A stretch of DNA of 64,000 bases from Hydnum rufescens UP504 (lineage: Eukaryota > Basidiomycota > Agaricomycetes > Cantharellales > Hydnaceae): positions 186,001 through 250,000 of the forward strand of contig MU128937.1 of assembly GCA_014904985.1 (NCBI GenBank), in the 5' to 3' direction. The position numbers were made by a program, and so were the translations under genes. This document shows positions 8,766 to 13,943 of this stretch, in pieces (the stretch's first letter is position 1; every line of letters begins with the position of its first letter). The notes beneath the pieces are model-generated. The model was not told the DNA's origin. It saw nothing but the letters and a program-made list of their open reading frames with translations, and did no database searches.

Positions 8766-8837
8766 GCCCCTTTGGCCCAATGGTTAAGGCGTCTCCTTCC
8801 TAAGGAGAAGATTCCTGGTTCAAACCCAGGGAGGGGC
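8766..8837 (+). tRNA. tRNA-Arg (anticodon CCT)
   Basis: The 72 bases fold into a full cloverleaf. The acceptor stem pairs GCCCCTT with GAGGGGC (one G-T pair). The D arm pairs GCC with GGC. The anticodon stem pairs TCTCC with GGAGA around the loop TTCCTAA, giving anticodon CCT (codon AGG). The T arm pairs CCTGG with CCAGG around TTCAAAC. The B box is GGTTCAAACCC. There is no intron. A TTTT tract follows directly at about 8838, as expected for RNA polymerase III termination. Confidence 0.93.
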
Positions 8838-9337
8838 TTTTGGCAGTTTAATTTGTCTCACCTGCATTTGCTTTGGGGCTCATGGGTTTTTGTGGCCCAA
8901 GCTCAGCAGAGAAAGAGGATCTTGTGGCAATGACCATGGGGTCCAGATGAGGCAGCAAACAAACAGTCTAATTTTGGGCAAAGGTGGTATACATCAGTAA
9001 CAGAGTATCTGTGATAGGGAAGCCCACTGTTGAGGGATGTGGAGTTCAATGCAAGGCAGGAACATAGCAATGCACCAATATCATTCATTCAGAACCCTGG
9101 TATTGCATGTGATGTCCTGAAATCCCTCAAGTGATAGGATTCTTTTCACTCATCTACTATCCTCATCAGGCCATCAGGAAAATCATTTACTCTCTGAAGA
9201 GATGTGTGGCTGAAGGAGGTGAAGACTCTGAAGCTCTAGAAGAGGATGTAGTTAGAATAGGCTGAAGAGAACAATCAGGGCTAAACTTAAAATAAATAGA
9301 GGCACAAGATTATTTAAATTCATTATATAGGAGCAGT

Positions 9338-9480
9338 ATTACATAAGCACCTGGTGCTACACAAACACCCATATTGGCAAGAACTCAAACATCCCACAAC
9401 TCAGATTCAAATTTGCACACAGACCTAGAGGCACATATATACCTCAAGAAATTCCTCCCCCCCACAGGTGCTTATGTAAT
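9338..9480. repeat. 143-bp element with 16-bp perfect terminal inverted repeats
   Basis: The sequence ATTACATAAGCACCTG at 9338-9353 recurs as its exact reverse complement at 9465-9480. The inner part is AT-rich with no coding sequence. It looks like a MITE or the end of a larger element, since the same TTATGTAAT motif is repeated many times just to the right (9480-9720). Confidence 0.65.
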
Positions 9481-9720
9481 GTTCATCTTATGATGGGTTA
9501 TGTAATATTACCATATTGACTGCTTATGTAACATTTATATAGGGAGATTATGTAATATATAAATTGTAATAATCTTTGTGAATGATTAGGTAATGTATAT
9601 ATGATTGTGTAATATTTCTATATATATGGTTGATTATGTGATATTTCCATGTATGCTGCTTATGTAATAGTAATATATGATTATGTAATATTGCCACATA
9701 TAGCTGCTTATGTACTTAAT
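9465..9720. repeat. array of degenerate TTATGTAAT subrepeats
   Basis: TTATGTAAT or a close variant (GGTTATGTAATATT, CTTATGTAACATT, GATTATGTAATAT) occurs about ten times in 250 bases in one orientation. Such subterminal arrays are typical transposase-binding regions in DNA transposons. The spacing is irregular, so this is not a simple tandem satellite. Confidence 0.6.
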
Positions 9721-9832
9721 CTTCCAGTACTTTGGAAGGCTGGAAGCAGGCTCTTCACAGACACTGAACTACAGACTGGAATTCCTTCCATGGTATGACA
9801 GATTTCATTCCTGTCAAAATGTGGGACACTAT

Positions 9833-10099
9833 TGGGCAGGTTCCTACCAGCCTCTATATAGAGGCTGGGACCTGCTTGATAGAGTTCTATTGGGTCCCAA
9901 ATGTGCTTCCAGTTAAAGGTTCTACTGATGTAATAAACCAAATCTAGCCTATTTTAGTAATGTGTTTTCCCTAATGAGGCTAGGAGGGAAACCACATTAC
10001 TAAAATAGGCTAGATTTGGTTTATTACATAAGTAGACCCTTTAACTGGAAATACATTTGGGACCCACTAGAGCTCTATTCAAGAGGGTCCTTACCTAGG
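9833..10099. mobile_element. hairpin-bearing MITE-like element, copy 1
   Basis: The two halves are imperfect reverse complements around a centre near 9975. Shared arm blocks include GGGTCCCAAATG, TTCCAGTTAAAGG and ATGTAATAAACCAAATCTAG. The left arm alone holds a 22-bp perfect palindrome at 9847-9868 (core CCTCTATATAGAGG). The element at 60298-60549 has the same layout, so both belong to one family. No coding capacity is present. Confidence 0.7.
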
Positions 10100-10304
10100 A
10101 CACCATGGATGAGCTGTTAATCATAGCACTCTCCAGGGATCCTGTTTGGGATCCTTCCACCACTCAAGAATTTCACCCCCTTTGCATCAGGAAAACCAAA
10201 GCTGCTTCAAAGGCTCTGAAGGCAGGAAGTGCCTAATGGTAAGTCCCTTCTAGTCTCACAAACTCATTTAAACCAGCCTGTGGTCAGGTTCAGGTTTTGC
10301 CCTC

Positions 10305-11117
10305 ATGGGTGATTTCAGGTTTTGGGCCAATTCTTTGGGGTATACAATTTCTAATCTGATCAGGAAGTCTCTGAGAAAGAGCAGTAGGATAAGGAAGAAC
10401 ATCCAGGATGTGCTATATAATACCATGAAGACAGGACAGCTACAAATAAACAACATAGTAAGAAAGAAAATGGTAATACAAGTAAGTAAAAGATCAGAAG
10501 TAGACATAATCTCTAGCATAAGAAAGATAACCATACCTACAGATGAGAACAATACCAACCATGATATGAGACAAGTTCATACCTCTCAGAGGGGATTTGT
10601 ATGTCTTAGTGAGACCCCTGAAGGTAGACAGGTAGGATTGACTAAAACACTAGCTTGTACATGTGTAATAAGTCCTGTCATGGATAGTCTGTATGATTCA
10701 GTAAAAGTAATAGTTGGAAATAATTCTGTGTCTCACTCAGTAACTCTTGATGGAATGATAGTAGGATTTTCCAATAGTCACACTTTCAATATGGTAAGAG
10801 AATTGAAAAAAGGATATCCATATCTCTCTGTTAGTATAGACAAAAATTTGGATATCCATATCAGAACCTGGTCTGGTAGGTTAATAAGACCATTGATCAG
10901 AACAGAAAGAAATATCTTTGATTGGAGTAGAGTAGAGCACAAGAAATGGGAGGAATTACTGAATCAAGGCATAATAGAATATCCAGATCCCCTAGAAGTA
11001 CCTTTCTATAGCTTACTCCCTGGGACAGAGTATGAAAAGGACTATGAGGAGTACACTCATATGGAAATTCATCCCTGTACTATGTTTGGGATATCTGCAT
11101 CTCCTGTTATTCCCTGA
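10305..11117 (+). CDS. fragment of a multisubunit RNA polymerase second-largest subunit (RPB2/beta-like), non-host type
   Basis: A 270-codon intronless ORF. Its middle reads RQVHTSQRGFVCLSETPEG then QVGLTKTLA, the hallmark (H-S-Q-x-G-x-x-C-x-x-E-T-P-E-G-x-x-x-G-L) of the RPB2/RpoB fork and external regions. Upstream, the helical segment IQDVLYNTMKTGQLQ and the I-R-K-I block match the place where RPB2 proteins have the fork domain. Downstream, DGMIVGFSNSHTF, the RELKKGYPYLSVSID segment, GRLIRPL and the acidic EEYTHMEIHP block follow in the correct RPB2 order. Only the central quarter of a roughly 1,100-residue subunit is present; the N-terminal lobe and the C-terminal hybrid-binding and clamp parts are missing. 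Host Pol I, II and III genes would be intron-rich and more conserved. The AT-rich codons and divergence suggest a large DNA virus or cytoplasmic virus-like element source, which is inference. Confidence 0.75.
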   Translation: MGDFRFWANSLGYTISNLIRKSLRKSSRIRKNIQDVLYNTMKTGQLQINNIVRKKMVIQVSKRSEVDIISSIRKITIPTDENNTNHDMRQVHTSQRGFVCLSETPEGRQVGLTKTLACTCVISPVMDSLYDSVKVIVGNNSVSHSVTLDGMIVGFSNSHTFNMVRELKKGYPYLSVSIDKNLDIHIRTWSGRLIRPLIRTERNIFDWSRVEHKKWEELLNQGIIEYPDPLEVPFYSLLPGTEYEKDYEEYTHMEIHPCTMFGISASPVIP

Positions 11118-11241
11118 CTTTATCATTGCCAAGGGTCAGAGCACTAGGCACAAGGATAAAATCATTGCATTGGTCAAGGTCAAGCATGATGGGGGTACAG
11201 TACTAGCTGCTTACCAACAAATCCTCAAATATATGCAATGA
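11113..11241 (+). pseudogene. short PD-(D/E)xK-like nuclease-domain fragment
   Basis: Directly after the RNA-polymerase-like ORF, in another frame, the sequence reads PDFIIAKGQSTRHKDKIIAL then VKVKHDGGTVLAAYQQILKY and a stop. A PDF motif followed about 15 residues later by a beta-strand with V-K-V-K resembles the PD-(D/E)xK core common in agaricomycete repeat-associated proteins, where V-E-V-K is usual. The acidic residue is replaced, so activity is unlikely. The match is short and the call tentative. Confidence 0.35.
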
Positions 11242-13240
11242 GTCATCCAAAAGCCCAATTGTTCACCCCACCTAGAAGCATCCCTGCTCCTAGGATGGGA
11301 GACCTGGCATTTCAGGATAAATTGGGAGCTAGGTGTCCAGCTGAGGCTGTTGTGATTCAGAAAGTGCCTGATCTCATACCTGCATTGCAAAGGTTGGCTA
11401 AAATCACATAGGATGTAGGTGTGCTGTGGTGGAAGTCTCCTCTATCTATTTTATATGCCATGGAAAGCTGAATGTAACAGGGATCCTACTGAAGATTTAG
11501 TGCATGTCCCCCAGCAGATGATGAAGTTAATTTACCAGAGGTCACCTCCTGGGTCCAAAGTCACAGCCATCACCACAGTCAGGGACATCTGGAACAAAGC
11601 ATCATGTACTGTACACTATAGATGTGAATCACACTTGGGATTCTAATTTCTGGGGCCACATTGCTACTGGTAAGTTCCCTTCACCTGAAATTTGCTTTCA
11701 TTTATTAACCAAATGCAGGATCCCTAGAGGGACATTGCATTGCAGAAGATCAAGCTCATGCAGCAGAGACTTGCATTGCTGAGCTTGAGGTGCAACTACA
11801 ACTGCAAATTCTCAACTGATAAAGATGCCTGTGTGGATGATATGCTTCTACTTGCAATGATGGATTTCTCTGATTAACCCTCCTCTGTTTTGGCTCAGGT
11901 GCTCTAGGCTGCAAGTGACAGTTCTCATGAGGCTCAAGAGTGGGATTGCACCCACATTTCTCACGTTGTTGCCATTGCTTGCCCATCCTATAATATTTGA
12001 CAACCTATAGATGCACCTTATGAACAAGGAGGTGGCAAAATAGTCAGTACAGTGAATCCCATAGGCAAGACTCTCAAGGTCACCAGAAAGCAGGTCCAAC
12101 ATCCATCTACACTCTTAGATATGATGTATGACCCCACTGAGTATTTAAACTATCCATGTTAATGAGTATGGTCTAACCTAGTCTCACACTGATAGGTGCA
12201 CAGTCTAGTTCAAATATAAAGCTTAACCATAGCATCTAGAGGAGGATAGGAATCAACCTGTCTATCCATGCCTAAAGACCTGTAGGGTTACCTTCAAGTG
12301 GGTGAAAGGTGCCATTGTATGGCTTCTCTTTACCACTGCTGATCAGCAGTGGGGGAATGAACACTCTACACAAGGCAGTAGTGTTACAAATTTTTTTAGT
12401 CAAAAAATTTCCTCTGATGTGCACCAGAAAAATGATCACAACTAGTGGGTTATTCAAAAAAAATACTCAATCTACCCACGATAGATAGTGAGTGACAAGG
12501 AACATAGAGTGCTGAGGTTGTGGACATACAGTTGCCATGGTCAGGTTTTTCCCAATTTGGGGGGGGTGCTATCATGTGTATAGTCAACAATGGTAGTCCC
12601 TATTATAAAAATGGGAAGAATAATTAGTAAAAAATAACAGTAGTGCAAAAAGGGCCTCTTCAGCTTAGGTACTGAAAAAAGCACAAGAACCTGTGGTTTT
12701 AGAGCTTGGGTCCTCCAAAGTGCAATAGAATCCAATATATTGATGAACTGCACAAGTGGAAAGAAGTGCACAAGTCCCTCCAGTTACCAATACAAACCCT
12801 CCTCCCACTCCCACTTTGGTGCCTCAGCCAATGCTATCCATTCCCATCCCCATTCCTTCATTCTCTTTGCCTGGGTATCTGAACAGACCCTTAGGGGCTG
12901 TGGTGGCTGTGCACAGGAGAGTAATATTTATAGCCCTTCACAGTTAGAGGATCCTCGTTTTTGATCCCTCAGGATTTCCACAGTGGTAGGTATCAGATTT
13001 GTGCATACTTGGTTGTGTGTTGCTGTATGCTCCGGATTTCCACTGTGTTAGGCATGTGGTTATCAATCTCTTTTCTATTTCTGTTTGTGGCCTTAACAGC
13101 AGTTTGCCCTGACAGATACCCTAATAAGGATCTCAATGTCAATAATTAAGCTCTAGACATCATTAATTACACACAACTGATTTAGGCATGCCTAAATAAA
13201 CCCCAGAATACCCATTATATCAAAGGTACTGGAATAGACT

Positions 13241-13369
13241 CAGTCTCGTGTAAGAGCACTGATATTATAAGTATCTACCTGGAATAGACTATATACAGAT
13301 AAGTAAGGGATATGGCCCGGAATGGCGTCTAAACACTAGGCTTACCTCAGTCTCGTGTAAGAGCACTGA
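13241..13369. repeat. 22-bp direct repeat pair
   Basis: The motif beginning CAGTCTCGTGTAAGAGCACT occurs at 13241-13262 and again at 13348-13369. A shorter motif GGAATAGACT also occurs twice nearby (about 13231 and 13281). These may be remnants of an LTR or other repeat. No coding sequence is associated. Confidence 0.55.
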
Positions 13370-13943
13370 GGGAAGCCATTCGGGAACGCCCGAGGATCTA
13401 TACAGCAGGAGCGGTCTGTACTAGAAAGGAAATACCATATATGGTAACCTCTATTCTTGATTACTAACACATTAAGTAGTTCTAAAAGCCCTGGAGTGGG
13501 CACAGATAGGCACAACTATATAGGGGACTGGGAAATTTTTCACCTTCTACACACCTCGGGTCATTTGCCAATGCAAACTGACACCACCTAAGAGGTACCT
13601 TCTGACAGTGGATTAAGTGCCAGGAGGGACATCTAAGCAAAATCAACCAGGATCAATGAAAAATCTCTGAAGAGACTTCTGACAGATGAATGCCTTCTGG
13701 CAATCAGCCCAGAACCTTGTAACAACCACCATCTCTGCCAATCATGAAATGGTTGCTTGCCTCATCCCTTCTTGTATTGCCAGATTGGGTCATGGGAAGT
13801 TGTATATACCACATGGAAACACATGCCCTTGGAAGCTCAGACTCAGACCAAAACACAATTATGAGGTCACAGAGCATGTAACTAGGTTCAAGTACTGTGT
13901 ACAGTGGAGCACAAATGTGAAGATGAAATGAATGCAGAAAAAA

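Follow-up and report, generated by a model that had tools for sequence, protein, structure and literature searches.

The window that we analysed, 64,000 nucleotides of the Hydnum rufescens UP504 genome, contains a genuine core of an RPB2-type RNA polymerase subunit (positions 10329-11102) that, by its sequence, is a member of a separate clade of compact RPB2 proteins. With a probability of roughly two in three, we interpret this core as a fossil left in the nucleus by an extrachromosomal DNA element, either a virus or a plasmid, that would have encoded a multisubunit RNA polymerase of its own, compact RPB2 included. The "element" part of this interpretation draws on the contig sizes of the relatives, on kinship, and on the absence of a host-gene explanation, the putative element being known from its RPB2 genes alone. 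Such an element would multiply within the fungal cell, and its own polymerase would read its genes, as suggested by the presence of a core-subunit gene and by what large DNA viruses and the virus-like elements (VLEs) of yeasts do. A 0.77-kb piece of RPB2 would then have been joined into a chromosomal break in repeat-rich DNA, much as yeast linear-plasmid genes have been captured in nuclei as NUPAVs (PMC4431711).

The original prediction had described a 270-codon RPB2-like open reading frame, and translation of the window confirmed that the plus-strand frame is open across all 270 codons and contains both SETPEG and QVGL. Its product, P0001, matched Pfam RNA_pol_Rpb2_3 (PF04565) with 51 bits (cut-off, 21; E value, 1.6e-13), and the best sequence matches in the PDB were Pol II RPB2 chains (4.7e-14) and an archaeal chain (7.3e-13). 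Rpb2 domains 4 and 5 scored below their Pfam cut-offs (16.2 against 28.7 bits and 19.9 against 21.1 bits, respectively), in the correct order, and both are clear when P0001 is aligned to its compact relatives. The catalytic domain 6 (PF00562) had no Pfam match in P0001, which bears out the earlier view that only the central part of the subunit is left. When 20,000 first-order random sequences of matching composition were drawn, none was open over the 258 codons of the core. The AT-rich island proposed for this region is also real, with a G+C content of 0.362 in the core, compared with 0.498 in the window outside 9-14 kb and 0.502 in the exons of host Pol II.

What had to be corrected was the extent of the gene, as RPB2 homology runs only from 10329 to about 11102 and the frame ends in repeats (Table 1). 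Homology begins immediately downstream of a 52-bp piece of a dispersed repeat, and thus the ATG of the reported frame, with its first 8 codons, belongs to the host repeat. With 40 of 258 candidates scored, this 52-bp piece was found in at least 34 other places; the repeat continues past it in the 18 copies shown, and at this locus it is cut. At the other end, the HMMER match to RPB2 extends to 11126, across one stop, and so passes the start of the right-hand repeat, leaving the right edge uncertain by about 25 bases.

Table 1. Features at and around the RPB2 core, in window coordinates
Feature	Position	Strand	Details
RPB2-like core	10329..11102	+	258 codons that cover the fork region plus external domains (Pfam Rpb2 domains 3-5); found once
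Open frame as first noted	10305..11117	+	First 8 codons are host repeat; last few are second repeat
Inner piece (52 bp) of longer dispersed host repeat; left junction	10277..10328	+	Repeat comparison
Repeat common with contig C19 (201832-202192), 72%; right junction	11105..11463	+	Repeat comparison
Chain of repeat pieces left of core	8954..10251		8954-9168, 9172-9329, 9383-9768, 9835-10098, 10101-10182, 10183-10251; 40 of 65 candidates scored
Palindromic element	9879..10078		94-nt arms, 93% complementary
Repeat pieces right of core	11727..13477		11727-12032, 12895-13116, 13133-13215, 13218-13477; 40 of 568 candidates scored
Host tRNA-Arg (cct)	8766..8838	+	Upstream of island

In the assembly, the partial gene is joined to host chromosomal DNA, with repeats abutting both ends, and the flanking repeats of the original prediction were recovered by our repeat comparisons. 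The contig is 386 kb long and carries host genes, those near the locus including a protein kinase gene, the tRNA-Arg gene, and a frame that weakly matches NAD kinase. This setting speaks against a contaminant or an assembly error, either of which we regard as highly improbable.

The same surroundings bear on a different proposal, also raised in the original prediction, in which a transposable element of this genome took up a piece of RPB2, from an element or from another organism, and brought it to this site. Repeat pieces touch both ends of the core, and further repeats are nested around it: the left-hand chain occupies most of its span, and on the right the segments without a repeat match among the matches listed are 11464-11726 and 12033-12894 (40 of 568 candidates scored). 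However, the RPB2 part was found only once in searches of the assembly, the left repeat is an inner piece and not the end of an element, and a Pfam test of 10 open reading frames from the island gave no match, no transposase or other element gene being recognised among them. We therefore consider transposon capture unlikely.

The interpretation as the fossil of an extrachromosomal element depends largely on what the relatives of the fragment look like. A search for full-length kin returned 11 proteins among 947 candidates, namely P0002 to P0010 and two archaeal-type RpoB proteins. The closest, P0002 (887 amino acids [aa]), is 57% identical to the fragment over 97% of the query, followed by P0003 (56%), P0004 to P0007 (49%), P0008 (45%), P0009 (37%), and P0010 (33%). 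Among 5,726 candidates, a profile search yielded 92 proteins with E values no higher than 1e-30; 30 compact proteins scored at least 815 bits and the next protein 531 bits. Because P0002, P0003, P0009, and P0010 are absent from this list, it is a lower bound. Taken together, there are at least 34 compact relatives, of 837 to 1025 aa, apart from P0008, which is truncated at 690 aa. Domain 6 (PF00562) is present in each of those tested (P0002, P0005, and P0008 to P0010). The stretches that are shortened in common among the relatives, before GYF, from DRD to TPEG, and from NQED to GDK, lie outside the span of the fragment.

Two of the 34 relatives are filed under organism names, Linnemannia elongata (P0036) and Podila clonocystis (P0037), which are soil fungi. 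Both are labelled "DNA-directed RNA polymerase subunit B'", and four others have a function name only. Linnemannia belongs to the Mortierellomycota. The identity of P0036 and P0037 to P0005, which served as query in the profile search that listed them, is only about 37%. They have the short build of the compact proteins and share with P0001 the same clade (support, 100/99) and the invariant residues described below, and they differ from it in being full-length genes, whereas P0001 is a 258-codon core. The longest contigs of the relatives measure 36.6 to 37.5 kb in 5 of the 34, with the L. elongata relative on a contig of 36.7 kb, 30.7 to 35.0 kb in 3, 54 and 68 kb in 2, and less than 28 kb in 24, with the P. 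clonocystis relative on one of 5.7 kb. The contigs of 36.6 to 37.5 kb are a hint at genome size, not proof of it, and some compact relatives could themselves be chromosomal. P0008, whose frame stops early and has an unusual tail behind the PSRMTMG block, lies on a 54-kb contig and appears to be a frameshift or a degraded copy.

In a tree built on shared columns, all 35 compact rows fell on one side of a branch with a support of 100/99, and P0001 grouped with P0002 and P0003 (99/95). The same compact clade was recovered in a 26-row full-length tree (100/100). One long row, P0081, adjoined the compact clade in the shared-column tree; when it was removed together with four more long rows, the split was unchanged. 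Cellular RPB2 proteins (Pol II, Pol III, and archaea) show 29% identity in the alignment and, unlike the compact proteins, are longer at several shared places.

P0001 is 32 to 33% identical to host Pol II RPB2, and kinship with Pol II was rejected, as forcing the fragment together with the host and Dictyostelium Pol II sequences costs 226 log units (p-AU, 2.2e-52). Kinship with Pol III was rejected as well (158 log units; p-AU, 1.1e-41). Pol I stands apart from the fragment in the free tree, and forcing the two together costs 19 log units (p-AU, 0.068), for a Pol I row that is fragmentary and has an end branch of 4.37. The earlier claim that the RPB2 is of non-host type is thus upheld for Pol II and Pol III; for Pol I the case is weaker, with the fragment apart in the free tree and no firm rejection in the forced one. 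That value, and the fact that only about 250 residues are available, are what could be said for a divergent copy or pseudogene of a host RPB2; set against the rejection of Pol II and Pol III and the far higher identity to P0002 than to host Pol II, they leave this explanation very improbable.

The 63.2-Mb assembly has three other RPB2 loci, on contigs C59, C156, and C2, which we named Pol II, III, and I, respectively, from motifs and trees, and a whole-genome scan placed the RPB1 domain on three contigs only. There is no fourth copy of domain 6 (PF00562) in the genome, and a search of the whole genome for other parts of the P0002 gene found none, nor any second fragment of the element. DNA_pol_B_2 had no match in the genome, in a search whose control detected 1 of 14, below cut-off, and searches for capsid and VLTF3 genes were likewise without a match, with controls that were silent. 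The lack of further element parts counts against our interpretation, although the capsid and VLTF3 blanks, given those controls, do not prove absence.

Among the sources named in the original prediction were nucleocytoplasmic large DNA viruses, here taken strictly as giant viruses (Nucleocytoviricota). Another fungus is known to carry endogenous giant viruses, in the asfarvirus-like region of Rhizophagus irregularis, which spans 1.5 Mb and has many genes (PMC10640383). That region resembles the present locus in that genes of a large DNA virus lie inside a fungal chromosome, and it differs in scale and in kind, since here there is a 0.77-kb piece from another RPB2 lineage. The predicted structure of P0002 (pLDDT, 81; pTM, 0.80) also points toward giant viruses, its best matches in the viral library being giant-virus RPB2s (pithovirus and mimivirus); the input alignment for this model included cellular and viral RPB2s, which aids the fold, and an earlier model with a pLDDT of 51 was set aside. 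Giant-virus RPB2s thus share with the compact proteins a predicted RPB2 fold and a non-host character, but they are mostly far longer, are only about 22% identical in these best structure matches, and fall apart from them in the trees.

The tree tests also speak against the giant-virus source. The viral-type rows, which are IMG/VR contigs and unnamed proteins, in a tree that does not include pox-, irido-, and asfarviruses, form a 12-row clade of their own (98.8), and placing P0001 with this group was rejected (p-AU, 5.6e-24). Placing it with the group plus the IMG/VR rows L067 and L068 was rejected too (p-AU, 3.4e-8). We used the 12-row test in place of an eight-row one (p, 1.6e-5), which also split the clade of those rows themselves. 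No compact member was found in IMG/VR over five scans: the single-sequence scan gave no relative, the alignment scans gave only viral-type RPB2s, with best segments at 24 to 30% (17 loci) and 23 to 42% (28 loci), a scan using an alignment of Linnemannia type was empty, and a motif scan gave 0 matches, for a motif that would miss Linnemannia-type members. The giant-virus type, as sampled in IMG/VR, is thus a rejected candidate, and we view a giant-virus remnant as an unlikely source.

Another source named in the original prediction was a cytoplasmic killer plasmid, that is, a linear plasmid of the yeast VLE type with a fused polymerase. In its way of working the likeness is close: a yeast VLE is a fungal, extrachromosomal element with its own reduced RNA polymerase, and fragments of it occur as fossils in chromosomes (PMC6211774, PMC4431711). 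The compact size of the relatives is also reminiscent of the shortened beta part of the VLE enzyme (residues 1-693 of K2ORF6p). However, the RNA polymerase of the yeast killer plasmid (pGKL2 ORF6/ORF7) is a beta-beta' fusion (PMC6211774), whereas the compact relatives stop after the RPB2 C terminus. In 33 of the 34, the protein ends 80 to 96 residues past the GGLR mark, and therefore no beta' part follows; the remaining one is the truncated P0008. A fusion of this type is accordingly absent in the relatives by their C-terminal ends; the fragment itself stops short of that region. In addition, the A+T content of the core is 64%, compared with over 75% in yeast VLEs (PMC4431711). A killer-plasmid-type source fits these data poorly, and we think that it has very little chance of being correct.

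Returning to the fossil of an extrachromosomal element with a compact RPB2, the fragment gives some indication of when it arrived. Judging from its sequence, it cannot be a working polymerase subunit, because it is without domain 6, which holds the catalytic lysines, and without a start of its own. Nonetheless, all 41 residues that are invariant among the compact relatives are kept in the fragment. This lack of decay suggests that the capture was recent and that the donor element was recently, or is still, present in this fungal lineage. Alternatively, the short frame might be expressed and under selection.

More broadly, these findings may reflect a lineage of DNA viruses or virus-like plasmids of fungi that has yet to be described, a proposal to which we would give even odds. 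Its members would have genomes of about 37 kb (perhaps larger in some) and would have their genes transcribed by a compact multisubunit RNA polymerase of their own, on a branch separate from the cellular, giant-virus, and yeast VLE enzymes; they would be spread from Mortierellomycota as far as this host's own lineage, and the locus described here would be their chromosomal fossil. If true, this would bring a novel type of mobile element to the fungi, along with a further example of the extent to which a multisubunit polymerase can shrink. According to one report, no virus with double-stranded DNA was known to date to infect fungi (PMC10640383). Element-borne RPB2 is already known; this branch and its chromosomal fossil, as far as we have seen, apparently are not. 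Among the literature matches listed, a scope that leaves out most subscription papers and preprints, there was no description of the compact RPB2 clade. A sequence from Mortierella verticillata appears in a tree of protein-primed DNA polymerases (PMC4642659), which we mention as a lead only.

Several minor observations concern other sequences recovered in the course of these comparisons. The genome-contig search returned two contigs from metagenome-assembled genomes (MAGs) among 57 stretches. Two bacterial MAGs hold foreign RPB2 genes. One (L079, JAFXUP010000032.1), from a MAG labelled "Acholeplasmatales," has an RPB2 that groups with host Pol II (100/99); the other (L078, NYTN01000019.1), from a MAG labelled "Rhodobiaceae," has one that falls with the viral-type rows, its neighbour there being P0053, a protein labelled "viral metagenome."

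The repeats of the locus are also of some interest in themselves. A reading of the repeat at the right junction, PDFIIAKG...IALVKVKHD, had no Pfam match and recalls what we take to be a PD-(D/E)XK nuclease motif. The copy of this repeat on contig C19 (L028) lies between two 172-bp direct repeats that are 96% alike and 6.9 kb apart. Copies similar to the palindromic element occur on C232, C156, and C91, among others. Finally, the short repeat at 13218-13477 has copies on C45 (99%), on C74 and C5 (100% over 252 bases), and on C10 (97%), and is probably a recently mobile short element.
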